Shown here in pieces: positions 24,109 through 62,632 of a DNA stretch of 64,000 nucleotides. Each line of letters opens with the position of its first letter. Within the stretch, counting starts at the first letter, position 1. A model generated the notes under the pieces. It saw only the letters and a program-made list of their open reading frames with translations. It ran no database searches and was not told the DNA's origin. Source of the DNA: Psilocybe azurescens (taxonomy: Eukaryota; Basidiomycota; Agaricomycetes; Agaricales; Agrocybaceae); the NCBI GenBank assembly GCA_023853785.1, contig JAJIRX010000904.1, positions 1 to 64,000 on the forward strand. The letters are read 5' to 3'. A program made the translations under genes and the position numbers.

Positions 24109-25305
24109 CAGTACTTTACAGTGCCCCACTGGTACTGGTCAGAACCACTTGGAACCACTTGGACCCAGTCAGAACCTGGTTGGAATCCACTCAGACTCAC
24201 TCAGAACTAGTTGGAATCTGGTCAGAATTTGTCGCTAATATACTTACTCAGTGCACAAAACAATGCCTAGTTAGCATTATATAATAATTGCTTATATAAG
24301 CTTATAAATGATGTATTGAAATCACATGATATTGTATGCTTAGTCAGTATTACATGATATTTCTTACATAAGCTCTTAAGTAATCCAATCAGGTCACATG
24401 ATATTTGTAATAAATGCAAAATTATAAAATACACTCAACAGGAATTAAACCAACAGCTTCATATATATTAATTCTATACATGCTTTACTAACTACACTAT
24501 TATTGCTTGTGGTATTCTCAACATTTTATGAATTATATACCATTCTTTACAACACTCAATAACATATTCTGGCACTTCCCTCAAGCTATACCCACATATT
24601 ATATATCAAAATGATAAGAAAATTGAGGGCAATGCACCTCTAATTACATCATCATCTGAATATTATGTCAGTATGTTCAATATAGAAAATACTGTAAATT
24701 TGAATATATATGGATATTGTAAACCACTTTTTGCAACAAAATAGCACTCTGTTAGCTATATTTAATAGTGTTGCAATAATAGAAATTAATAGAATACAAA
24801 GATCAATTTTATTCAAGAAATTTGGATTATATAAGCACAGATTTATATGAAAAATAGGTATTTCTTTACCAGAAAAATTTTAATTTTATATAACTATTAA
24901 ATAAACATATTCTCCTAAATTTTACAATTCTAACAATACCAAATTTGTCACAAACTGATAAAATCTATGTATACTTTTTGTGTTATTACTTGCTGAGCTG
25001 TAAATAGTATGCTGAAATAATATGGTTCCACTTGGTACCACTTGGATTCCACTCGGAATTGGGTCTAATTGGGTTTCAAATTTGATGAATTCCACTTGGA
25101 TTCAGTCAGATTCCAGTTGGATTCTGATCAGATTTTGGTTGGACTCGGTAGCGGTGGAACTGGTCGGTACTGGTGGTTCTGATCAGAAAAATTTGGACAT
25201 TTTCCTGCTAATTTGGCAGAGATACTGCCAAATAAAATTCGGTCAGAACTGGTTGGATTCCGACCAGTTCCAATTGGTACCTGTGGGGGAGTGTAAAGAT
25301 TTCGC
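24109..25305. mobile_element. Y1: non-autonomous TIR element in KDZ, 1.2 kb
   Basis: Termini CAGTACTTTACAGTGCCCCAC (left) and, inverted from the right, CTTTACACTCCCCCACAGGTACC. Flanks share CCTGGCC (24102-24108 and 25306-25312; 7 of 8 bases if extended). Removing the element and one flank copy restores the KDZ frame (VGQ/ADAYF). Near both ends the body is built from GGAACC/GGAATCC-type words; the middle is AT-rich with a tRNA-like block near 24440-24510. No coding capacity. Confidence 0.88.
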
Positions 25306-25747
25306 CCTGGCCAACTATGACAATTGTATCCATGTATTTATTGGAGAGAACCTCTGTCATTCCAAGCATTTTTTGTAATTAGAATCAGTTGTGTGATCAT
25401 TGAGCACTTCTTCTTGGTGTGCCATACTTGCTGTCTTGACTGAAGTTGAGATTGCATTGAGACTCAACCAGAGTGATTCAAGAATCTGTCTGGCCACTAT
25501 TGCCACACCAGGAATGAATGTTGATGCAAAACAAAACAAACAAATGTCTTTGTGGCCATGAACATGAAATAGATCAATAGCTTTATCAATAATGAGGCTG
25601 GCTGGAAGCAAATGGCCAATTCAGTCAAAAAATGAACAATCCATGCACAGACAATATTGTAGATGAGGAGTAGGCCTTGTTCAGGTTCAACATGTGTTGA
25701 TTTTATTGCCTGCAGTAATGCATAGTCAATATTTTTTGCTGTTTGCC
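25306..25747 (-). pseudogene. KDZ transposase, piece 3 (diagnostic core)
   Basis: Minus strand: QKNIDYALLQAIK, EQGLLLIYNIVCAWIVHFL, then IDKAIDLFHVHGHKDICLFC, FASTFIPGVAIVARQILESL and MAHQEEVLNDHTTDSNYKKC. The order NMDYAL-like, LLxxYDxxC-like, LFHVHGHxxxC, FIxGxGxVxxxxxESLW, LAHRxEVLDDHxxDSNxKK is the signature of basidiomycete KDZ transposases. HxHxxxC is part of the conserved metal or catalytic region. Bounded by the W target duplication (25739-25747) and the Y1 target copy. Confidence 0.9.
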
Positions 25748-25772
25748 GAGGTCTTTACCCTCACCCAGGTAT

Positions 25773-25823
25773 TCCATGTGGAGTCCACCAACTCCGGCAT
25801 GGAGTTGGTGGACTCCACATGGA
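25773..25823. repeat. W left hairpin (GGAGTCCACC word)
   Basis: Perfect 23-bp inverted arms (25773-25795 and 25801-25823) separated by GGCAT. Further GGAGTCCA/TGGACTCC words follow to about 26000. A likely transposase-binding array, by analogy with subterminal repeats of hAT and CACTA elements (inference). Confidence 0.9.
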
Positions 25824-26141
25824 GTTTGGTGACACTTTTTTGGCAGATATCCCAGCCATTTAGAGGTGGAGTCTCCACATGGAGTCCAGCTGGAATCCAC
25901 TCATCCTCCATGTGGACCGATGTGGAGGATGTGGAACTCCATCTGGACTCCATATGGAACTACATTTGGAGTTCATGTGGACTCCATATGGAGTTCCATG
26001 TGGATTTAACCTATGAATAATGTATATCAATATGAATACACAATTTTAGTGTCAGATTCAAATAGACTCCAGGTGGAGGAAGGTCCCCGGATTTTATTTA
26101 TATTTTATTTCAATTTATAAAAATTAAGAAAAGAATTACAA

Positions 26142-26212
26142 TAGGTCAGAATTGAACTCTCGACATCACGGTAACAATCGGATACACATTCTACCATTAG
26201 ACTAAACCAGCT
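26142..26212 (-). other. tRNA-like block in W
   Basis: On minus: GCTGGTTTAGTCTAATGG (A-box like), about 30 nt of anticodon-region sequence, then GAGTTCAATTC (B-box like). The acceptor stem does not pair, so it is a tRNA-derived sequence or pseudogene rather than a working tRNA. A comparable block lies at 47797-47872, also between a palindromic-word end and an acidic exon. Confidence 0.5.
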
Positions 26213-26272
26213 TTGTTTCCAATGGAAATAACATGATTATATACCCGTTTCAGTCACACGCGGCCGCATGCA

Positions 26273-27465
26273 GTGGCGTTCAGCATAGTCGGCACGCAAA
26301 CCACGCACAAATATTTGTTTGTGGCGCGCGGCCAACGTTTGATCGTGGCACCGACAGCCACGTTGCCACTTTTCCCCACTTCCCCCACCTCCCCACTGCC
26401 CCTCCACCGCCACTCGCCGCCGTCGACTATCGCATCCATGATCGTGGACGATCGCGCACGATATAGCCCCCCAGACCAGGTCTGGAGCCCCACATCCGCA
26501 TCCGGACCCATCTCCACCGCCACACCCTCATCCGTGGCCCCCAAACGTGGCCGCCAACGTCTCAAATCGGACGCCGCACAGGTGCCCAGCAAGCGCACAC
26601 GCCGCAGGGCTCGGGGGTACAAACAACGACGGTGACGATGCAAACGACCCTGACGACGAATACGACGACTACGAAGACCGTTTGACGGCCAAACCAAGGA
26701 GTAGGGGGTCCAAGGCGACGCGGCCGGTCAAGAAAGGGGCCCCCGCAGGTGCATATACCCTCCTCCGTTTTTATTTGCCTCACTGATGTTTTCAGCAGGA
26801 AACCTGCCCATGAAAAGGCCAGGGAGGAAGCTGGGGTCGATATACCCCACGACAAAACCCTTACCTGGTACGTCCCCACCCCTACCCTTTTTCTATTCAC
26901 ATTTAAAATTTTATTTCTTTGTTTTTACTTTTTTTTTGTAGCACGGAATGTGTGCTCGAGATGAGTGGCACTACGGTAGCACCCCACCACGTCGCTCAGG
27001 GCGTGTATCGGCTGCCGCCCCGCCCCTACCCTCGTCTCCGCCGCCAGCTCGTCCAGGCGACGTGAGGATGCTGACGCGTACGCGGAGCCCGTAGAGGACA
27101 ACCACGGCAATGACCAAGAGGACAGCGGATACCACGACAACGATGAGGACCGAGACCACGACGAAGACCACGACCACGACAAGGACCAAGACCGCGAATA
27201 CGACAAGGACCGAGACTGTGAATACGACAAGGACCGTGACCATGACGAAGACGAAGGCGAGGGCCGCGACCATGGCGAAGACGAAGACGAGGGCCGTGAC
27301 CACAACGGCCATGACCACGATGAGCATGAGCACAGCCACGACGGCCGCCATGGCAACGACCACGCCGAGGACAGCGAAGGCAACAACGTGGCCAACGACA
27401 GCCACACCGAGGACAACGGCGGCCACAACGATGACGACAACAGCGAGGCCAGGGGGAGAGGGTAG
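26273..27465 (+). CDS. GC-rich acidic first exon(s) of the W gene
   Basis: Much more GC-rich than its surroundings. Plus-strand reading includes DDPDDEYDDYEDRLTAK-like and PRSRGSKATRPVKKG segments near 26640-26740, then AHEKAREEAGVDIPHDKTLT (about 26805-26865). An intron with a GTACGT donor and TTTTTTTGTAG acceptor follows, then a Ser/Pro/Arg segment. At 27090-27460 a frame of GAY/CAY/AAY/GAR codons gives HDNDEDRDHDEDHDHDKD and similar repeats. Frames do not join cleanly; exon borders are guesses. No known domain; probably disordered. Confidence 0.45.
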
Positions 27466-27467
27466 GC

Positions 27468-29206
27468 GTGATGCCGCTGCCGCTGCCAAACCTGCCCAGG
27501 AGATTGTACGAGTGGTGCACCTTGTCCATGCCAACAGCAGTGCACGCCCGTGACCATGACAGGACCCCAACCTGCTCTGTGCATGATCCCACCACCCCTT
27601 GTGGCCGTGATTTTGACAAGGCCAGCACCCGCCTTGATAAAGGTAAAGCAAGCACTGCTCGTCATCATGCCTATGGAGGCTCTAGTACCCCTCATGCACC
27701 TGTGCATCACACCTTCTACAGCCGGGACAGAGGCAATTCCACCTCTCGTTTCCGTGCTCTTTCTTCTGAACGTCATCGCCATCAGGAAGGTGAAGTATCC
27801 ACCACCCATCCTGATGAGCATGTCTCTCGAGGCCGAACCTCATCTCGCAGTATCTGTGATGATGGTATATTTATTTATCTTTATTTATTCGTAGTTATTA
27901 ATATGTTGAATAGATGTTGTTATGGCCAGTCCACCTAAACATATCTCTGCTCATGGTTCATCTCGCTCATCAGGTGGAATAGCCAGAGGTAGAGCATTGG
28001 GTGGTCATTTCAATATTGCAGATGCTCAAAAGGTTTGGGATGATATTAATGTCCATGAAACTTCTGCTATTGGACCAAAGGAGAAGGGCAAGATCTTGGT
28101 CTATCAGTCTTCAATGGATCCAAATACTGTTGATGTATCAACAACTAAATCTTCATTTGCTGTTCGTGTTGCGGATACTGCACAGTACACAACCATTCAA
28201 GATATTGTCAGAAGGGTTGCACAAGACTATTCCCCAATTCAAAGTAAGTTCAATAACTTCAACTATTATTTAGTTTATTCAAATGAATTGATAATAGAAT
28301 CTACTGTTCAATTGTTCTTTCTTGATGATGCTGACTGGATTGCATTTGGCTGATATGAGGCAATTACTCATCGAGATCCAGTTTTTGAAGATAACATTGA
28401 CTGGTTGAAGAAAGATGGTTTAAAGGTTGTTCACATTTTGGCTGTAAGTTTTTATTGTAATTTTTTTCAATTAATTTGATTGTTTTTTTATTTGTAGTCA
28501 ACATATGATCTGAGTCCTGGTTTGATATCAGGATTACCAGGTCGTATTGGATCCATTTCTAGTCAATCTTCTTTACCATCTGGCTCTTACTCTGGTATTC
28601 GCTCTGAGTTTTCTCTCCGTCACAACACTGTTGCAATAGCATCAGCACCTTTGACTATTCAAGAAGAGTCTGAAGAAGAGCCATGGCTTACTTCATCAGG
28701 CATTCCGACTCTTAAATACCCGAAAGCACTTAGCTGAAAGAATTAGGCATTGATTCATATTATATGAATCGTTCTGGTAAAGGCATACGATTTTACTGGA
28801 GTTGTTATAAAGAGTGCAAAGCAGCAATCAAAGAGCTAAAGAGATCAACAATAGTGGAAACTGGCCTGTCAATATTCCTAGCTATTGCAAAGAGCATATC
28901 ATTGAAGTTTTCATTGGGAAGTCTGCTTGGCATCAGAATTATGGGACACCTTTTACAAGTGTCAAGGATTACTATCCTGATTTGGTGGACTGGTTGGAAA
29001 ATCCAGAAGCACCTAAAGAAGAAAACAAGATAGTCTGGGGAGTGGACAAGGCAGAGTACACTATAGCTGATTTAAAGGAATTTTTGGAGAATCAAGGGAC
29101 TTTGCGTAAATCCAAGACCAAAAACAGTCGACAATCTCTTTCACCATCTTCACCTTTAATTGGAAGAAGCAAGTCAAAGAATAATCGGGAACAGCGTAGG
29201 AGGTAG
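27468..29206 (+). CDS. W ORF of unknown function, multi-exon
   Basis: A plus-strand His/Arg/Ser-rich segment (27560-27860) is followed by a likely intron, then 27922-28353 (MASPPKHISAHGSSRSSGG, HFNIADAQKVWDDINVHETS, VADTAQYTTIQDIVRRVAQD). A stop occurs after DDADWIAFG. The frame then continues HRDPVFEDNIDWLKKDGLKV to a GTAAGT donor (28444) and a TTTGTAG acceptor (28497). Later pieces (28522-28737 and 28814-29206) read SLRHNTVAIAS and YYPDLVDWLENPEAPKEENK. The C-terminus is basic (SKNNREQRRR). I do not recognise the family. Its position in W suggests an accessory or DNA-binding role (inference). Broken by a few stops. Confidence 0.5.
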
Positions 29207-29480
29207 GCAATATTGCAATATCTTTTTTCTTCTGTTTTTCTTGTTTGAAAACTTCTTTTTCTTTTCTTTAAAAAAAAATTTTTAAATTTAAAAAAAAAAA
29301 CTAATATATATTTTGTGTACTTGTAGTCTGGCTTTTGCTTCAGTCTCTCAGACTTCCAACTCTGTAACATCATCTGATAGACATTTTAATGACACTGTCT
29401 ATATCATATTCCATCTTGCAATTATCTTGTTTTACAATGCTGCTTGACTACCAGCATATCTGAAAGTACTTGGATCACTG

Positions 29481-31759
29481 GTGTTTCTTCCTTTGGTGTG
29501 TGCTACTCCTCAAACACAGCCATTTCCAGATATACCATTTTATGTCTTTAGTGAGTTTATCCAAAAGACATTTAACTCTGAAGTGTCTCTGGCAACAGTA
29601 TTGCTGGTATTATTTTCAATGACAGAAAATCCTGAACTACTCAGCTTACATGCCCGACAAAAAATCCTGTCTTTCAAGGAGAACATAAAGTTGTATCTTC
29701 AGGATGGATAAGATCCTTATCTCGTGGCATTATGCATAAATTACAAGACACTCAGAAAACTCTTTTTCATTATGGTGAATATTCTAAAACTCACCGAGTT
29801 GCAAAATTGGCCTCCAAACTTGATGCTCTTGCAATTTTGCTTAAGCTTACTCCATATGATAAAAATAACAGGTTTAAGGGCAAGCTGCTTCCTGTATCAT
29901 ATGACAGCATTCAAGGTGTTCTTACAATTTGTCCAAATTCTATTGTATGTGTAAATATAGCCTGCAAACCTCGAGGTTTATTGCAAGCCAGTGCACCACG
30001 TGATATTCCATTAGTCACCCTATACAAAGAAAATATCATTTATCAAGATACTCCAGTTCTGATGGGAAAATGCTTTAATTGTAACACTTTCTACTATGCT
30101 GATCATGAGCGTTTTCAAGATCAACAAGGCCAATGGAATAAGTGTTATTTAAATTCAGCAAGGTTTCTAAAAGTTGGTAATACAACATGGGTTGATAGAA
30201 AATTTTCACACTCGGTTTTAAGTGGAATGTATAACTTTCATGGATCAGCAGCTGCATATACCCAATTTTGGAATGACTGCAACTTAGTCACAGGATCAGA
30301 CTTACAAGTTGCTAGACGTCTGATTTGGCAGACATTTATCCAAGAGTCTATCAGGTCAATTGCAAGCAGTAAAAATGTTAACTTGGAGTTGCCAGACAAA
30401 CTAAACATTAAAGAAGTTGCTATTCAAGCATTTTCTAAACTAGGAGATGCAGGAAAGTTAGAACCTGCTAAGAATCATTCTTGTTCACAATGTACTCAGC
30501 CATACAGAGCTACTGCAGATTTTATGGCAAATGAAGACCCTACAGCAGTTCAAGGTGCTGATGAAAACACTGCAGTACCTGTTTTAGTTGGAGAAGATGC
30601 AGCAATATCTGCACAGAACACTATTGAACAAAGAGCTGTTGCACGAACAAGAGCAAATAACTTGCATTCTGATGCAAACTTAAACAATGATGCAATGGAT
30701 ATTGACTATGATGATTGTACAATGATAGTACTAGATGGTCTTGTTATGGGTCCTATAGTAAGTTAGACTATTATTTTTATTTTTTAAATGACTAAAGCTT
30801 GTTTAAGCACTGTGCATTTGAGAGCTGTACTCAAGATGTAAAAAATGCAAGAGGTGGAGCTTTTGTGAAGACCATGAAAGACAATATGGGAACAAATGCC
30901 GTGTTCGTATTTGTCAAGCAATAAAAGTTGAAAACACACAAGCATGTCAACGGCATCAGCCTGAATGGAGAAAATATAAACTTGATCATAACAGATCCAC
31001 TTTAGCTGGGGTTAGACGAATACTTCAAAGACCTGATGAAGCTAATCCTTGGCAACCTGGTCTTCGCAGAACTATTCAGGCTCATGATGATGATGGAGAC
31101 ATTGAAATCCCAAGAGATAATTACTTTGGGCCTGGTCGATGGTACTGTGTTGAAACAATGACTGCACCATGTGGAGTTGTGATTGCATGGACTAAATTTG
31201 ATAAGTCTGAATCACCTACTAAAATTCTGAACTGGTTGCAATCTGTTTATCCAACTGAAGGATCTCGGCCATCCTATATTTGTATTGATAAAGGTTGCCA
31301 AGTCCTTCGAACAAGTATTGTAAACAGAACTTGGGAATCTTGGAAAAAACTAGTCGATTTATTGTTGATTCATATCATTATATCAACCATCGAACAAGTG
31401 ATTATCTATGCCGTAAATGGTGTAATCCAGCTCCATTAAATGGTTCTGCTCCAAATCTTGTAGTTCTAGCAAAGACTAAAGATGGAAGAGAATATCTTCA
31501 GCGAGCATTTAATACACAAGCATGTGAACAATTAAATTCATGGTTAGGTGGCTTTGATTCAATTATAAAGTGTATGAAATCTGGGAATTTTAATTGGTTT
31601 TTGCATTCAATGCTGTTCTATCACACTCAACATGTTATTCAAAAGCAGAAACAAAGAGAAAAGCCTCAACAAATTGATGATACTGAAGATGATGAAGGAG
31701 AAGAGAAGAATGAAAACTATATTGAAAGACACTGGGATTTAGAAGATGATGAGACATAA
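29481..31759 (+). pseudogene. CxC5-CxC6 cysteine-cluster protein, candidate W transposase
   Basis: N-terminal helices (29481-29700, ...LHARQKILSFKENIKLYLQ). A one-base shift near 29705 leads to 29732-30757 with the CxC5-like cluster (ICPNSIVCVNIACKPRGLLQ, LVTLYKENIIYQD, GKCFNCNTFYYADH) and an RLIWQTFIQESIR helix. An intron (GTAAGT at 30758; acceptor TTTAAG near 30808) precedes the CxC6-like cluster: HCAFESC, a shift at GGAF, then HERQYGNKCRVRICQAIKVE, NTQACQRHQPEWRKY. The C-terminal region has SYICIDKGCQVL (Asp), VDSYHYINH with DYLCRKWCNP (Asp, CxxxC) and NTQACEQLNSWLGGF (Glu), a D-D-E-like order. Acidic tail ends at 31759. CxC5/CxC6 names are from memory of KDZ-associated domains. Shifts at about 29705, 30850 and 31350 make it inactive as read. 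Confidence 0.75.
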
Positions 31760-32201
31760 GTGTGTAGAAAAAGAAGTGTATTTTAGTGTACCACTATAAA
31801 TTATTTGATTTGATTTGAAGATCTTGAGAGCTTTATATAGACTTTTATAAAAATTCTATTTATAAGCTTGTAGGTCTACTACTCACTTAGACAATGAATT
31901 TAAAATATATATGCAAAAGCTCCATCTAGACTCTATCTAAATCCTGACTATACTAATGAAAAATAAAAAATATTAAGACCTGTATGGAGTTTATGCAGAG
32001 TCTATGTGGAGTCCATGCAGAGTCCATGTGGAGTCCACTTCCATCTAAAGTGGAATTATTTGGAGTCCAGATGGAGTCCACCTGGACTCCATCTGGCATT
32101 AAGTGGAATTGTATGGAGTCCAAGTAGACTCCATCTGGACTCCAAGTGGACTCCACTTACCAAAGATGACTTTATGAACCTTTATATATGTTCCAGATGG
32201 A

Positions 32202-32275
32202 CTCCATGTGGAGTCCACCACTTTGTATGGAGTTGGTGGACTCCATATGGAGTACCTGGGTGGAGGTAAAGTACA
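32202..32275. repeat. W right end with hairpin and terminus
   Basis: 19-bp arms (32202-32220, 32234-32252) with one mismatch, then GAGTACCTGGGTGGAGGTAAAGTACA to the end at 32275. Upstream, 31980-32160 is packed with GGAGTCCA/TGGACTCC words. Confidence 0.88.
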
Positions 32276-33249
32276 CTGTTTGCCTCAGAACAAGTCAGCC
32301 AAGGAATTCAGCACAAAGCAACCATGCCGAGCACATGCAAAAGCAACTTTCCCTGTTTGGTCACATGCTTTTGTCATAAGTAATGCATTTGTAATGGCTT
32401 TGTATGTGTTTCACAAGGTGCTTTCTGGAAATGTCTCCATCAGACATGGCCAGACATTGGCCCCAAACTGCACATGCCATTAATTGTTCAATCACAGATG
32501 CTAACAATTGTTGATAATCATTGGAGTTGGGAGCCATCCCAGCTCTGTCAATTAACCAGATATCATCATTACACTTTTGCCAAACATGGTCAGCTTTGAA
32601 ATTTCCGTCAGTCACAAAAATATGTTTGTATACAGCCTGTGTGCATGGTAGATTAACTTCAGAATTCTATAATGTGTGTAATATACTAACCTATTTGGAT
32701 TGTCCTTCCAATTGGTGGGCAATTTTATTCCGGGTTGAGGGCATATCAGGCAATATAAGGATAATGTCCCATTAGGTGGGTCTTTGGGATCTTTGGGTTT
32801 GTGGCCATACCTGGCCCATCTCAATTTCTTGAGCCACCTCCATAGTCAAGACATGTGGCAGAATTCATGGTAAAAATTGATGATTTCAGTACAGCCAATC
32901 GGTGTCATTATTTTGCAAATCAGTTGATAAAACTGGTATACAGATGCCTTCAACTCCAAGTTACAAAGACAAAAATGATCCATGAGTTGAACAGAAAATA
33001 GTGTTCATATTTTGGTCAAGCTAGCTGGGAGGAGCTGACAAGCAACCAAGTCTATCAGAACTAATTGTTCCCCTCAGCAATAGCATGTGACCATGGCCAT
33101 GTGATGAATGTCATTGGTGTGTAAAATTTGCACATATGTGTTGTTTAAACCATCCGCCACTGGTGCACTTGGTTGAGTTGATTGCATGTCATTTTCATGC
33201 TGATAGCTGACATTGACACCCTCATTTACTGACTCTTCAACAGCCATAC
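32276..33249 (-). pseudogene. KDZ transposase, piece 2 (CxC2-like cluster and start of catalytic domain)
   Basis: Minus strand: YVQILHTNDIHHMAMVTCYC, LVACQLLPASLTKI, NLELKASVYQFYQLICKIMT, then LYCLICPQPGIKLPTNWKDN and VTDGNFKADHVWQKC. Later come KACDQTGKVAFACARHGCFV and LNSLADLF, ending G-K-Q at the W target site. This is the CxC2-type cysteine cluster plus DGNFKADH (catalytic Asp) and CARHGCF typical of KDZ. Stops (CYC*GEQ, TKI*TLF, HMS*LWRW, LF*GKQ) are TGA or fall where the family has Arg, and several expected Arg are Cys or His. One frameshift or intron separates YCLIC... from DGNFKADH. Confidence 0.85.
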
Positions 33250-33970: not shown

Positions 33971-34735
33971 ATGCCCTTCAACGGCGAACGGTTTAAGAGC
34001 AAGAAATTCCTTCAAGAATGTATCCTCTATATGGGGATCAACAAGGACGTATACGACACTGAACCGAAACAGATTGCATTCATTCTCTCTTACATGCAAG
34101 AAGGGAACACAGTCGTTTGGAAACAACAATTCGTCCAGAACAAACTGAACCCTCGACACAGGGGACATTGACTTACCTACATACAAGGAATTCATTGACG
34201 AATTCCAGATGGCATTCAAGCCAGAAGAAGAAGACATTGATGCATTGGATAAATTAAATATGCTTCGACAAAAGAACCTGACCGCCGAACAACTAGTAAC
34301 CAAGTTCAAACTACTGGTTGGAGAGGCAGTGATGTCTAACAACTCCGACACTGCAAACAAACTCCTGATTGAAACATTTAAGAAAGCACTGAACCCAGTG
34401 CTAGTGCAGAAGATCATCCAGTCCGAGAAGAGGCCCACCAAAATCAAAGAATGGTATGACAAAGCCATGTCTTTCGATAGGAGCTATCGACTCGCTATGG
34501 CAATAAAAGGCCCATCTTATTTGAACACGCAATTCATTCCCAAATCCGCGCCAAGGAAAGACCCTTTGCAATGGACGTTGACATCCTGACCACCAAAGAA
34601 CGAACAAGCCTTATAAAAAAAGGGGCTTGTTTTAGATGCAAACAAACAGGACATCTCGCTGTAGATTGCCCTCAGAAGAAGAAGAATAATCCCTTCATAC
34701 CGGAAGGAACAGCCGAAGAAGAAATGGACAGCTAA
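33971..34735 (+). pseudogene. gypsy gag (capsid plus CCHC zinc knuckle)
   Basis: Capsid region: MPFNGERFKSKKFLQECILY and YMQEGNTVVWKQQF, then FQMAFKPEEEDIDALDKLNM and the RPTKIKEWYDKAMSFDRSYR linker. A knuckle CFRCKQTGHLAVDC (about 34631-34672) fits CX2CX4HX4C. The gene ends with MDS-stop at about 34735. Frameshifts near 33960, 34165 and 34560 split it. Coding-like sequence extends upstream of 33971 in another frame, so the true start lies earlier, near 33750-33800. Confidence 0.85.
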
Positions 34736-34857
34736 GGACCTTCATGCCCATATCCGGGAGTTGAACATGGAGGAAAGAGAAGAACTGGCAAGCTTGGCAA
34801 TGGGAGACCAGGGGAGGATACCAACACTGAGGATTTTTAAAATGGAGAACTGAATCG

Positions 34858-37800
34858 ATGTTGGTCTCTCCACAATTAGACATCTATTCTGTATTTATGG
34901 CTACACTCGAGAATAAATCTATGCATTTACCGATTTCTTTCTCTGCCATGAAAAACAGAAGGCCACAAATCATCAAAACCTCAGGTCTAATTGACTCTGG
35001 AGCTGGTGGAAAATTCATCGACCAGAACTATGCTAGGAAACTAGGACTCAAACAAAAACCCTTGAAGAAAAACCTCACAGTATACAACGTAGACAGAACT
35101 CTCAACAAGAAAGGAATGATCTCTACCTTTGTAGAACTCAATCTTACTATTGGGAACAGAACAAACGAGGAAATTCTATTTGTCTCTGGACTAGGATGAC
35201 AAAAGGTTATTTTAGGACTACCTTGGCTTCAGAAACAAAACCCCAACATCGATTGGGAAACTGGAAAAGTTAAATGGAGAGTTTCCAAATCCATCTGCAC
35301 TACCACTATGGAAGAAGAACTGGAAGAAACTGAACCACTCACAGACACCACGGACGCCCCCACTCGAGGGACTTCAACGCTTTGGTAATAGATTTTATCG
35401 AAGCAAAAGACTCCGAAGAAATGGACCAGGCATGGATCAATGCGAAAACCATGGCTTCACAGACCCTGGCAATGGAATACAAAAACAGGACACCTGCTAA
35501 ACCTCTGGAAGAACTTATTCCCCAGGCCTCCACGACTACCTTGGACTTTTCGACAAAAAGGCAGCAGATCAATTTCCCATCTCAAGACCCTGGGACCACA
35601 AAATCGAACTGAAGCCTGGATTCAAACCGAAACCATGCAAGGTCTATAGCCTCACCCCAGAAGAACAAATCGAACAGGACAAATTTCTTAAAGAAATGCT
35701 GGACAAAGGATATATCGTCAAATCAGAATCGGACATCACATTGCCCTTTTTCTTTGTAGCCAAGAAAGATGGAAAACTGTGACCTTGTCAGGACTATCGA
35801 TATCTAAATGAATGGACAATAAAGAATGCCTACCCTTTGCAACGGATCCCTGATCTAATGGACAAACTCAAAGGAGCAAAGTTCTTTACCAAGCTAGATG
35901 TCAGGCAAGGATACAACAATGTTCGCATTCAAAAGGAAGATCAACAGAAAGCCGCCTTCAAGACAAATCAAGGACTCTTTGAACCCACAGTTATGTTCTT
36001 TGGATTATGCAATTCCCTGGCCACTTTTCAATCCATGATGGATTCACTATTCAAAGGCAAAATCTCTGGAGGATTTGTGATCATCTACATGGACGACATC
36101 TTAATATTTGCCAAAAATCAAGAAGATTTGGCAAAATACAAACGGATTGTCTTACAAAGACTGAAGGATAATGACCTGTACCTCAACCAGAGAAATGCGT
36201 CTTCAGACAATGAAAAGTCAAATACCTGGGAATGATAATCGAAGAAGGAAAAATCTCCATGGACCAATCAAAACTTAAAGGAATCCAAGACTGGCCTGTG
36301 CCTACCACAGTCAAGCAAGTCAGAGGATTCCTGGGATTTGAAATTTCTACCGAAAATTCATCAGGAAGTTCTCTACGGTAGCACAACCCCTGAGTGACCT
36401 CCTAAAGAAGGACAAGAAATTTGAATGGATGGACACAGCTCAATGAGCATTTGATGAACTAAAACAATGATTCACAGAAGAACCGGTTCTCTCGATGACA
36501 GACCCAAACAAACAATTTCAAATTGAATGCAACGCCTCTAAATATGCATCTGGAGCCATTCTGACTCAACTCGATGGAAACAGTGAAAGACACCCATGCA
36601 CATTTATTTTGAAAACCTTCTCCGTGACGGAAAGGAACTATGAAATCTACGATCAAGAACTCCTGGAAATTGTACGAGCATGACAGGAATGGAGACACTA
36701 CATTCAAGGATCCAAACATATGACAATCATTCATTCTGACCACAAGAACCTGACCTACTTCAGAAGCCCAAGAAATCTGAACAGACAGCAAGCTCGATGG
36801 TTATTATTCCTATCTGAATTCGATCTGAAACTAATCCACATGCCTGGGACAAAAATGATTCAATCTGACGCCTTATCAAGAAGACCAGATTTTATACCAG
36901 ACAAAGACCACAACAATGAAGATGTGACTCTACTACCGGAAGAACTTTTCGTCAATCTAATCGACACCTAACTGCAACAAAAAATCATCAATTCAGAAGA
37001 ATTCGACACGGATATTGCAGAAATCTTGAAAGCTCTACTACAAGGAGGACCACTGAACTTACGAACCGACCTCAACGACTGGAGAACAGAAGAATTCAAC
37101 GGGAAAAATGTCATTTTTTATAAAGACAAAACATATATACCAAAGAACCAAAACCTACAGCAACAAATAGTAAAATCTCTTCACGATCTACCATTGGCAG
37201 AACACCCCAGAGAACTTGAAACATACAACGCAGTAAAGACACATTACTGGTGGCCAGGACTACGATCCTTTGTAAAACAATATGTCAAGGGCTGCGGAAT
37301 CTGTCAACAATTCAAAATTAACAGAAACCCCTCTCACCCGTCTTTCATGCCAATCACTGGACCAACTTCTATGCGACCATTTGCAAACTGTTCAATGGAC
37401 TTTCTAACCGATCTACCACCAGTTAAAAACAGTGTGGGACAGATTGTGGATGCAATCATGGTTGCGCTAGACCATGGGCTTACTAAGAGGGTGATTTTAA
37501 TACCTTGCCAGAAAAAAAGGGAAACCGGGAGAAGCACTTGACACAGAAGGAGCAGCTCAACTCTTACTCGACAACCTCTTCAAACGATTTGGACTCCCAG
37601 ATAGCATCATCTCTGACTGAGATCCCTTATTCACCTCAAAAGTCTTCCAAGAACTCATGAAACTTTTGGGAATCAAGTCTAAACTAACCACGGCTTATCA
37701 TCCAATAGGAGACGGAACCACCGAGTGATTCAATCAAGAAATAGAAGCCTACCTATCCATCTATTGTTCCTCACACCCAACCGACTGGAACAAGTCAATT

Positions 37801-38208
37801 GGAACATTGGAATTCACTCACAACAACAGGAAACACTCTGAAAGGGCCAAAACCCCATTCAAACTCACCCTAGGTTCATCTCCATTAGCCATTCCACTTG
37901 CATTCGAGAACACCAAAGCCCCATTGGTGGAGGAAAAAGTCAAACATCTCCTAAAAGATCGAGAAGAAGCATTAGCCACCCACGAACTTGCAAGACAAAG
38001 GATAGCTGAACAAAGAAAATCAAACTTCAAACCGTTTGAGAAAGGAACAAAAGTTTGGCTAGACTCTTGCAACATCTCCACTAGGTACCATTCAAAGATG
38101 AAACTGAAATGAGAAGGCCCATTCACGATCACAGAAGTCTTGGGACCTCTCACGTACAGACTCAAAATACCCAAGATATGGAAAATCCACAATGTTTTCC
38201 ATGCCACT
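34858..38208 (+). pseudogene. gypsy pol: protease, RT, RNase H, integrase
   Basis: Protease motif GLIDSGAGGKFID (about 34985). [30 protein letters not shown] and YMDDIL (about 36087). RNase H: CNASKYASGAILTQ, then YEIYDQELLEI and [19 protein letters not shown]. Integrase: H2C2 finger HPRELETYNAVKTHYWWPGL...CGICQQFK, then SMDFLTDLPP, VDAIMVALDH (Asp), FGLPDSIISD (Asp) and FNQEIE (Glu). Premature stops (35197, 35780, near 36445 and 36470, 36681, 36969, 37618, 37726, near 38110) are TGA except one TAA; frameshifts occur near 35380, 36205, 36345 and 37520. The frame is cut at HNVFHAT by the 38209 insert. Confidence 0.93.
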
Positions 38209-39603
38209 CATCAGGAAAAAGAAGTTTTATCCCAAAGAAATCTAGGTGTCTTTAAGCATCTTAGAGACTTTAAAGATGATAAAGACACAAAGCACCCTAA
38301 GCACCTTTCAATGCAAAGTGACATGGGAACAGTTTATCCAAAGCATTCCAAAGCAACCCAAATATTATCCACAGGCCTCCCAAAGACCTCTCATAGACAT
38401 CTAAAGCTACTTAAAGCATCTCTGACATCCACTGAGATGTCTTTTATTTCTCTTCAGGTTCACTTGAGACGCAGCATGGTAATGGCATCTTACAGAATTC
38501 AAATATAGTAAAATGTATATATAATTAAAGCAAGCTCTCTACTATAGTGATATGCTAGTTGATTATACAATCACAGACAGGGAAGAGGATATATAAAAAT
38601 AATGTATAATAGGATAGATAGAATGTGGGGTAGTCCATCATCGTAATCTAAGATACTATAGCTAATGTTGGCATTGGGCCATTGGATGGGCACAGCAGGT
38701 TGAGGAAGGGAGAGGGCAAGTGGTGCATAGATGTCAGGACCAGAGATAGTTGTCTATTACATGAGTTTTAGTGAGCAAAAAGTGGGGGAAACGATAATCA
38801 AAACATACCTGTCAGAATTTAGCACCCTCATTCATTACTCCAAAAGGCAAGATGGTGGGATGAGTGCCACCAAATGTAAGCACAGGGAAATGGGCAGTGA
38901 GTCACTGGATGGGCAAATGAATATGGCAAATGATACATCACCAATGCCAGTGCTGGGGCCAAAAACAGTCCTATGCAACCTGTTATGCATGTTGTAGTTA
39001 GTAAAGAGATGGAAAAGGGGCTGTGGTATACTCACTTTCAAGATTTAGCATTTCTATTCATAATGATGAAAGACAGAACAGTGGTGGCAATTGCGAGTGT
39101 AGGGTAGTGGGCATTAGACACACCAGATGACAAAGATGACAGGACTGTGAGCCATCCTCTGTGGTCTGTTGAAAGTATGGTTGTTAGCAAAAAGAAAAAG
39201 ACAGGAGATGAACTGAACATATCTGTACAGATGGGTGGCATGGTGTTTGATGTGAGCTAGTCGCATACTCAGTTGCCATTGCATGTGGAACAAGCATGTG
39301 GCATAGTACACTGGGGGTCTTGGTTATGGATTAGCAATAGAGGGTGGTGGAGAGCATAATGGTGGTACTTACTGAGGTACTGCCATTATTACGCTACATG
39401 GGCACTGCTGCCAGTTCTTGTTACTGTCAGGTGGTGTCAGCTTTACTATATAAAAGGGAATGCTGGTACTTAGTATTAGCATAGTGAGTGTGGGGCAGTG
39501 AAAATGGCATCAACAACATTGGGCATCATTGACAATTATGAGGGTAAGGGAACAGTGGTGGTGGTGGTGAACCAAGAACAAAGTTGAACTTCACAAATCG
39601 ATA

Positions 39604-49690: not shown

Positions 49691-50018
49691 ATCCAGCTGG
49701 TGAGTACTGCTAACAATATATACTGCCCTAATGTTTGCATATCTTGTTTCCTGTCTAGTTGCGAGACTCTATATAATTTTCAGCATCCTGACATGGAGAA
49801 ATGGCAGGAAATCAATGTCACTCACCATTCAGATACAAAGCTGCACATCTTTTCTGCTAGAATCATCATAAATGTGAAGATAGACCCCAATGTCCTCCAC
49901 AGCTAACCCAGTTTTTCAACAGATTCTATTAGATGCCACAAAGGTGTTGAAAGAAGGGGATGAGGATTCAGCACAAGGCTCAAAGAGCCTGACAAGCCGT
50001 TAATGTCTGCCAAAACCC

Positions 50019-51208
50019 AGTACTTTACAGTGCCCGTAGTACGGTCAGAACCGCTTGGAACCAGTTGGAATCTGATCGGAATCCACTCAGAACTGGTCAG
50101 AATTTCTCATAATGTACTTAATCAGTGTATAATACAATGCTTAGTCAGCATTACATAATAATAATAATAATTGCTTACATAAGCTTATAAATAATATATT
50201 GAAATCACATAATATTGTATGCTTAGTCAGTATTATATAATATTTCTTACATAAGCTCTTAAGTAATCCATTCAGATCATATGATATTGGTAATAAATGC
50301 AAATTATAAAATGCACTGAACAGGAATTGAACCAACAGCTTTATATATATTAATTCTATACACACATTACCAACTACACTATTATTGCTTGTAGTATTCT
50401 CAACATTTTATGAATTATATACCATTCTTTACAACATCCAATAATATATTCTGGCAGTTGCTCTGAAGCTATACCCATATATTATATATCAAAATGATCA
50501 GAAAATTGAGGGCAATGCACCTGTAATTACACTATCATCTGGATATTATGTCAGCATGTTCAATATACAAAATACTGTAAATTTGAATATATATGGATAT
50601 TGTAAACTACTTTTTGCAACAAAATAGCACTCTGTTAGCTATATATTAATAGTTTTGCAATAATAGAAATTAATAGAATACAAAGATCAATTTTATTCAA
50701 GAAATTTAGATTATATAAGCACAGATTTATATGAAAATAGGTATTTCTTTACCAGAAAAATTTTAATTTTATATAACTATTAAATAAACATATTCTCCTC
50801 AATTTTACAATTCTAACAATACCAAATTTGTCACAAACTGTTGAGATCTATGTATACTTTTTGTGTTATTACTTGCTGAGCTGTAAATAGTATGCTGACA
50901 TAATATGGTTCCACTTGGTATCACTTGGATTCCACTCGGAATTGGGTCTAATTGGGTTTCAAATTTGATGAATTCCACTTGGATTCCAGTCGGATTCCGG
51001 TTGGATTCTGATCGGATTTTGGTCGGACTTGTTAACAGTGGAACTGGTCGGTACTGGTGGTTCCGATCGGAATCTGGTTGGAATCTGGTTGGAAAAATTT
51101 GGACATTTTACTGCTAATTTGGCAGGGACACTGCCAAATAAAATTCTGGTCAGAACTGGTCGGATTCCGACCGGTTCTGATCGGTACCTGTGGGGAGTGT
51201 AAAGACCT
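50019..51208. mobile_element. Y2: second copy of Y, 1.19 kb
   Basis: CAGTACTTTACAGTGCCCGT...GGTACCTGTGGGGAGTGTAA. Flanks CCAAAACC(C) and CCAAAAACC(C) look like an 8-9-bp target duplication with one extra A. High similarity to Y1 over the whole length. Confidence 0.85.
50318..50385 (-). other. tRNA-like block in Y2
   Basis: On minus: AATAGTGTAGTTGGTAATG (A box) and GGTTCAATTCCTG (perfect B box). Same position as in Y1 (24440-24510, B box mutated), U1, U2 and S. Confidence 0.55.
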
Positions 51209-51306
51209 CCAAAAACCCTAGGGTGGTGAAAAGCAACATTGAGAGAGGAGGTATGATATAGCTGTAACACCATACATATGAGGGTTTAATTTTGATAAGA
51301 GCATGA

Positions 51307-62404: not shown

Positions 62405-62632
62405 GTGTACTTTACCTCCACCCATATACTCCATCTGGAACATATCCAAGTGTTCAGAAAGTTATCTTTGATAGGTGGAGTTCAGGTGGACTCCAGATGG
62501 ACTCCAGATGGACTTCAAGCAATTCCACTTGAATCCAACTGGAGGCCAGGTGGAGGCCAGGTGGAATCCAGGTGGAGTCCAGGTGGAGTTCAATTAGAAT
62601 CCACCTGGACTCCATACCTGGGTAACAATATT
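62405..62632 (+). mobile_element. W3: short W-family MITE
   Basis: Left GTACTTTACCTCCACCCATA, body of GGTGGAATCCAGGTGGAGTC-type words, right CTCCATACCTGGGTAACAA, a damaged inverse of the left end. About 228 bp; mobilisable only by a W-type transposase (inference). Confidence 0.65.

Follow-up and report, generated by a model that had tools for sequence, protein, structure and literature searches.

W and its insertion site

The window analysed here is a stretch of 64,000 nucleotides from Psilocybe azurescens contig JAJIRX010000904.1 (C779), which belongs to an assembly (G000) of 70.4 Mb in 937 contigs. It contains a KDZ (Kyakuja, Dileera, Zisupton) gene that is interrupted by a complete transposon, called W below. 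W carries two genes on the plus strand, ORF1 and, downstream of it, ORF2, whose product contains the cysteine clusters CxC5 and CxC6 (Table 1). By its ends, target duplications, empty sites and multiplication in the genome, W is a mobile element. Very probably it stands for a group of DNA transposons that is unrecognised in the literature searched and is moved by its own DDE transposase, the ORF2 product.

An earlier note on this DNA, made from the sequence without database searches, had proposed a complete transposon of about 6.5 kb inside the KDZ gene, which is borne out by the extent of 6,529 bp and by KDZ paralogs with an empty site. The terminal inverted repeats and the hairpins close to both ends, which it also described, were found again, both hairpins being present in the repeat listing. 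The inverted repeat is offset 5 bp inward from both ends (GAGGT-CTTTAC... and ...GTAAAG-TACAC), and end sequences of the W type read GAGGTCTTTAC on the left and GTAAAGTAC on the right. Comparison with sister copies changed two details of the earlier description. The target duplication is 8 bp instead of 9 bp, because these copies show that the ninth base, C, is the final base of the right terminus GTAAAGTACAC, and the right boundary was corrected from 32275 to 32276.

Copies, target duplications and empty sites

With the left 20-base terminus of W (at most 2 mismatches) we found 194 occurrences in the genome and none with the reversed control, while the right terminus gave 187 occurrences and its control 2. 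When the 100 left ends listed were compared with the 100 right ends listed, 59 left ends had a partner within 10 kb, and the spacing was 1.87-2.21 kb or 0.93-1.28 kb in 52 of the 59 pairs, one right end being used twice. We fetched 30 of these pairs in list order, omitting the autonomous copy on contig C8 (L010) and the pairs on C172 that share an end. Among the 30 short copies, the 8-bp duplication is exact in 18; 7 of the 8 positions agree in 2 copies, 6 in 1 and 4 or fewer in 9, whereas none of 870 control pairs of unrelated ends reaches even 7 of 8. Of three short elements read whole, one (1.2 kb) is W with an internal deletion, and the other two (2 kb) have W ends around non-W sequence. 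Many of the short elements with W ends would be mobilised in trans.

For full-length copies, both ends were read by eye. Exact duplications are present in 7 of 10 (the window copy, L009, L010, L012, L019, L021 and L022), a match over 7 bp in L023, and none in L025 and L027. When the flanks are joined without the element, uninterrupted paralogs are recovered for all three insertions tested. These are KDZ copies for W (best three 91-93%), a repeat at 97-99% for L009 and a repeat for L012 (best two 88-89%), and alignments spanning the empty junction were made for seven of the paralog hits.

A genome search with the CxC5 exon gave 121 matches, which correspond to 89 loci. We sampled five CxC5/CxC6 families (W, B, C, D and E), grouped by identity by the analyst. 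The termini and the subterminal GGANTCC repeats are common to four of them (W, B, D and E), the ends of family C being incompletely mapped. Of the termini of other families, one pattern occurs 168 times in the genome and a second one 72 times, with 0 for the controls. With one copy counted per family, the palindromic GGANTCC is almost confined to the outer 450 bp (left/middle/right: W 6/0/11; B 10/0/8; D 3/1/4; E 12/1/13).

Some single copies deserve mention. L022 and L024, on contigs C220 and C437, have an identical left flank and a near-identical element, so that two haplotypes or a segmental duplication may be present. Of the E-family copies L026 (C699) and L027 (C892), one has CCCGGGCTG in its right flank and the other in its left flank, which suggests a contig break or mis-join within near-identical copies. 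At 4026-4238 of L011, the end of a W copy (contig C338) lies some 200 bp from the left end of a D-family element in opposite orientation, the two elements of the group being nested or adjacent.

Table 1. Coordinates of W, its genes and its proposed functional sites in the window
Feature	Positions	Strand	Basis
Transposon W, complete, 6,529 bp	25748..32276	+	Termini common to L009 and L010; empty sites
Left target duplication copy TGTTTGCC, 8 bp	25740..25747	.	Sequence; 8 bp in sister copies too
Right target duplication copy TGTTTGCC, 8 bp	32277..32284	.	Sequence
Left outer terminus GAGGT, external to the inverted repeat; common to families W, B, D, E	25748..25752	+	
Left inverted-repeat arm (CTTTACC...)	25753..25795	+	43 nt, 91% complementary to 32229-32271
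Left subterminal hairpin, perfect 23-nt arms, 5-nt loop	25773..25823	.	Repeat listing
Left subterminal zone, 6 GGANTCC sites; putative transposase-binding repeats	25748..26197	.	
Right subterminal zone, 11 GGANTCC sites and hairpin at 32201-32253	31827..32276	.	
Right inverted-repeat arm	32229..32271	-	Repeat listing
Right outer terminus TACAC	32272..32276	+	Comparison with sister copies
ORF1, several exons (approximate boundaries), conserved, putative accessory protein, no Pfam family	27922..29206	+	Homology across families
ORF2, CxC5-CxC6 DDE transposase gene (supported by predicted model and alignment)	29460..31759	+	Frame breaks near 29660, 30864, 31346
Signal-peptide-like hydrophobic segment LKVLGSLVFLPLVCA, ORF2 start	29460..29504	+	Kept across families and species
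CxC5 cysteine cluster, PF18718	29918..30280	+	E 1.2e-25
VLDGLVMG, RNase H core strand 1, proposed first catalytic Asp (codon 30734-30736)	30728..30751	+	D in 75/75 aligned homologs
Intron (GTAAGT...AAG) directly after strand 1	30758..30807	+	Sequence; HCAF read from 30808
CxC6 cysteine cluster, PF18721, between catalytic-fold strands 1 and 2 (end approximate)	30808..30990	+	
ICIDKGC, proposed second catalytic Asp (codon 31287-31289)	31278..31298	+	D in 74/74 aligned homologs having the site
FIVDSYHYINH, DxxH motif (D619, H622)	31358..31390	+	D and both H in 75/75 aligned homologs
ACEQLNSWLGGF, proposed catalytic Glu (codon 31526-31528)	31520..31555	+	E in 42/75 aligned homologs

ORF2 as the proposed transposase and ORF1 as its neighbour

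That the CxC5-CxC6 protein is the likely transposase, as the earlier note suggested, is supported by the match of its predicted model to DDE transposases and by its conserved acidic residues. The predicted model contains an RNase H-like core of the DDE type, for which ISCth4 and Tn5 are the best structural matches, and in model and alignment the conserved D, D and E are placed on this core. Both cysteine clusters seen in that note are present, although the CxC6 match of the W copy, which is broken, is weak (21.7 bits, under the Pfam cut-off of 27.5). In a Pfam scan of 40 ORF2 homologs at E 0.1, CxC5 and CxC6 were found in all 40 and a transposase family in none. The blocks ICIDKGC, DSYHYINH and CEQLNSWLGGF, which had been read as D, D and E, do exist, but this assignment did not stand: the first Asp is placed in VLDGLVMG, ICID provides the second, and DSYHYINH is the DxxH motif. 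Since the proposed first catalytic Asp (VLDG) precedes CxC6, the zinc module would split the catalytic fold, and DDE enzymes would gain an architecture with a zinc module after strand 1. The 33 of 75 homologs without the Glu all terminate no more than 25 residues from FNTQ, either ahead of the last intron or inside it.

In the window, the ORF2 copy is frame-broken at three homopolymer runs. In L012-L015 and L018-L024, too, the frame is broken at runs of A or T, possibly through homopolymer errors of the assembly. Because run lengths vary among near-identical copies, the breaks may reflect decay or assembly error. Most ORF2 copies compared contain frame changes or stops, some being introns, and L026, which is among the longest single-frame matches, has 4 stops. 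Full-length ORF2 homologs are present in other database records.

W had been described with a single large gene, and two were found. In all 11 copies searched, which represent the five families, ORF1 lies upstream of ORF2 on the same strand, the match in family C being weak (E 2.4e-4). ORF1 has five homologs among the matches listed and no significant family in Pfam; its structure model is poor and a structural search on it was uninformative. In four Amanita gene models ORF2 is fused to ORF1, entire or partial.

We propose that the ORF2 protein, assisted by its zinc-binding clusters, binds the inverted repeats as well as the palindromic GGANTCC sites close to either end, and that it would cut and join DNA by means of the RNase H-like core. 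The triad would consist of the Asp of VLDG (D424), the Asp of ICID (D592) and the Glu of CEQLN (E672), with DxxH lying between ICID and CEQLN and CxC6 placed behind strand 1. The stagger at insertion would be 8 bp, and ORF1, a conserved second protein, would probably act as a helper. W may move by cut-and-paste or by copy-out/paste-in.

A signal-peptide-like start of ORF2

The ORF2 protein begins with a hydrophobic segment, which ends in forms such as LPSVSA-AP. We scored this start as a 12-residue stretch with mean hydropathy of at least 2.0 within the first 60 residues, in Met-starting proteins only. It is present in 85 of 106 Met-starting ORF2 homologs, with an A-x-A-like site after it in 80, and in 2 of 84 Met-starting proteins from the KDZ search. 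Within the genome of P. azurescens, families W, B, D and E all have it. Hydrophobicity by itself is not specific, since comparable 12-mers occur past residue 150 in 63 of 120 ORF2 homologs.

We know of no DDE transposase that uses a route through the endoplasmic reticulum or the nuclear membrane. Rather speculatively, W could belong to a mushroom transposon superfamily that combines a zinc-split catalytic fold with a secretion-type N-terminus, the enzyme acting by way of the endoplasmic reticulum or a nuclear-membrane anchor; we hold this to be improbable as a whole. The mushroom-only occurrence of this type of ORF2 applies so far, among the named hits.

Relation to KDZ transposons

Iyer and others in 2014 are said to have written the founding paper on these cysteine clusters. 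Pfam describes PF18718 (CxC5) and PF18721 (CxC6) as clusters associated with KDZ. In this genome, the number of the 89 CxC5 loci that have a KDZ locus no farther than 5 kb away is 3, W among them, against an expectation of 1.5; at 10 kb it is 4 against 3.0, and at 20 kb 8 against 6.0. The 118 KDZ loci were taken from the matches listed of 170, with same-locus rows removed by eye, and the expectation supposes uniform placement. The KDZ domain PF18758 is absent from the precomputed annotation of the 120 listed CxC5 proteins and from the 40 homologs scanned (E 0.1), and neither CxC5 nor CxC6 occurs in the 120 proteins listed by the KDZ search, which have PF18803, PF18802 or neither. The KDZ-search hits listed carry CxC2, CxC1 or no cluster, which agrees with the report on Pleurotus (PMC7641404), where, in the text available, intact KDZ genes invariably go with CxC2 and never with CxC5/CxC6. 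A comparison of 75 CxC5/CxC6 with 29 KDZ proteins by hhalign stayed at chance (probability 0.2, E 0.33) with a shallow query profile (Neff 3.0) that limits its power, and the comparison restricted to the domains gave chance level as well.

W and KDZ elements are alike in mushroom occurrence, cysteine clusters and DDE type, and Zisupton has 8-bp duplications as W does (excerpts of PMC12730594). By contrast, two Kyakuja families of Laccaria are described in the same excerpts with 7-bp duplications and CA..TG ends without inverted repeats, while W has 8 bp, GAGGT..TAC ends and inverted repeats. KDZ also differs in its clusters, CxC1, CxC2 or none, and in the lack of detected profile similarity.

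Known superfamilies and the oyster mushroom insert

Pfam families exist for MULE or IS256 transposases, and none of them was found in the 40 homologs at E 0.1. Elements of the hAT type have subterminal repeats comparable to those of W; no hAT dimerisation or transposase domain of Pfam was found in the 40 homologs at E 0.1. They also share 8-bp duplications with W, according to the parts of PMC12730594 at hand. In the available part of PMC7780238, ISCth4 of the IS256 family is described with D175, D241, E348 and a C/DxxH motif; it has TGTAAA close to its ends and makes 8-bp duplications. W resembles IS256 and MULE in its predicted RNase H-like DDE core, in a C/DxxH between second Asp and Glu (D619 and H622 in W), in the 8-bp duplication, in GTAAAG near its end, similar to the TGTAAA of IS256, and in having ISCth4 as top structural match of the ORF2 model. 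It differs from ISCth4/IS256 and MULE in CxC6 after strand 1, the CxC5 domain, a separate ORF1 and the absence of a Pfam-level match. Between DxxH and Glu the ORF2 model has short helices and two strands, at low predicted local distance difference test (pLDDT) values. Prokaryotic relatives were not confirmed by two peptide patterns searched against genome contigs. Judged from sequence and predicted model, the resemblance to IS256/MULE is a likeness and not membership. The Pfam, hhalign and literature searches are in keeping with the proposal of a poorly described superfamily, and such a family may still be catalogued in Repbase.

A similar insert has been reported from a sporeless Pleurotus ostreatus strain, in which poMSH4 contains 6,792 bp with a 739-amino-acid CxC5/CxC6 ORF (PMC7641404, here and below from part of its text). 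The wild type has 44 CxC5/CxC6 regions, complete or truncated, and the sporeless strain nearly 60. The insert has short internal repeats and no KDZ within the expected distance; an intact Copia element lies within 15 kb of every full copy, and an association with Copia was proposed there. By a term search, 'terminal inverted' and 'target site duplication' are both absent from that text. The insert resembles W in its size, its CxC5/CxC6 ORF and its many copies, and differs in that neither catalytic residues nor a second gene are described in the text available. Probably the poMSH4 insert, ascribed to Copia, belongs to the W group, and this group would give a direct and testable explanation of the insertion behind sporeless commercial oyster mushrooms.

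As far as the available text of PMC7641404 and PMC12568894 goes, the fungal CxC5/CxC6 genes are not treated there as belonging to a transposon that encodes its transposase itself, and nothing on CxC5/CxC6 is contained in the excerpts of PMC9674265, PMC12062965 and PMC3985635. Inverted repeats of KDZ and Plavaka elements have been characterised in Marasmius (PMC8290104, excerpt). For P. ostreatus, Tc1-mariner is given as the sole one present of 19 cut-and-paste superfamilies (PMC4905642, excerpt), a statement that contrasts with the 44 to nearly 60 CxC5/CxC6 regions of the Pleurotus report. If two Pfam families named as KDZ accessories are transposase parts, fungal annotation may miss a whole group of DNA transposons.

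Alternative explanations

The ends and duplications of W might be coincidence or assembly chimeras: the assembly consists of 937 contigs, the flank of one E-family copy is seemingly divided between two of them, and the left flank common to L022 and L024 means that haplotypes may be present. Against this stand the absence of any duplication in the 870 control pairs, the continuous empty sites of all three insertions and the 194 left and 187 right termini, and we give this explanation practically no weight. Little more credible is that KDZ transposons have the CxC5/CxC6 proteins as accessory partners and the W copy is merely located in a KDZ element. The Pfam descriptions say so and the window copy does sit within a KDZ gene, but W is an insertion when compared with the KDZ paralogs, proximity to KDZ loci stays near expectation, the two lists of 120 proteins do not overlap, and the Pleurotus KDZ genes point the same way (PMC7641404). 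This partnership is largely refuted by the empty-site paralogs, the lack of locus clustering and the lack of shared domains; CxC5/CxC6 genes as partners inside KDZ-owned ends were not found in this genome, and the earlier proposal that W is its own element nested in KDZ is supported. It is also very unlikely that the CxC5/CxC6 gene is a passenger on DNA moved by another enzyme such as a Copia integrase, as suggested for Pleurotus. The Copia elements near the full Pleurotus copies speak for it (PMC7641404), whereas W and related elements end in inverted repeats and are flanked by 8-bp duplications, ORF2 itself resembles a DDE enzyme in the predicted model, and the ORF1-ORF2 pair is retained in every copy searched.

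The alternative with most weight, although we consider it the less probable reading, is that W belongs, as a very divergent member, to a superfamily already known, the MULE/IS256 lineage being the most likely. The 8-bp duplications, the C/DxxH motif, ISCth4 as top structural match and the subterminal GTAAAG, comparable to TGTAAA of IS256 ends (PMC7780238), would be expected of such a member, and the D-D-DxxH-E spacing is similar once CxC6 is removed. However, no Pfam transposase family appears in the 40 homologs, a prokaryotic relative was not confirmed by the two peptide patterns in genome contigs, and the model shows no clear four-helix insertion domain like that of ISCth4, its confidence being low in this region. 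The fold does not pick a family, since Tn5 has the same Z as ISCth4.

Other elements in the window

The KDZ gene that holds W contains a second element of 1,195 bp with related ends (GAAATCTTTACACTCCCCC ... CTGTAAAGTACTG) at 24109-25303 on the minus strand, flanked by GGCCAGGGC and GGCCAGGC. A further element, about 1.2 kb long and of the same end type, lies at 50018-51209 on the minus strand (flanks GGTTTTTG and GGTTTTGG), and a short W-type element on the minus strand runs across the window end, its right end at 62405-62415 and its left end at position 64540 of C779. Just downstream of W, at 34209-38500 on the plus strand, there are open frames that by eye resemble the polyprotein of a Gypsy-type long terminal repeat (LTR) retrotransposon.

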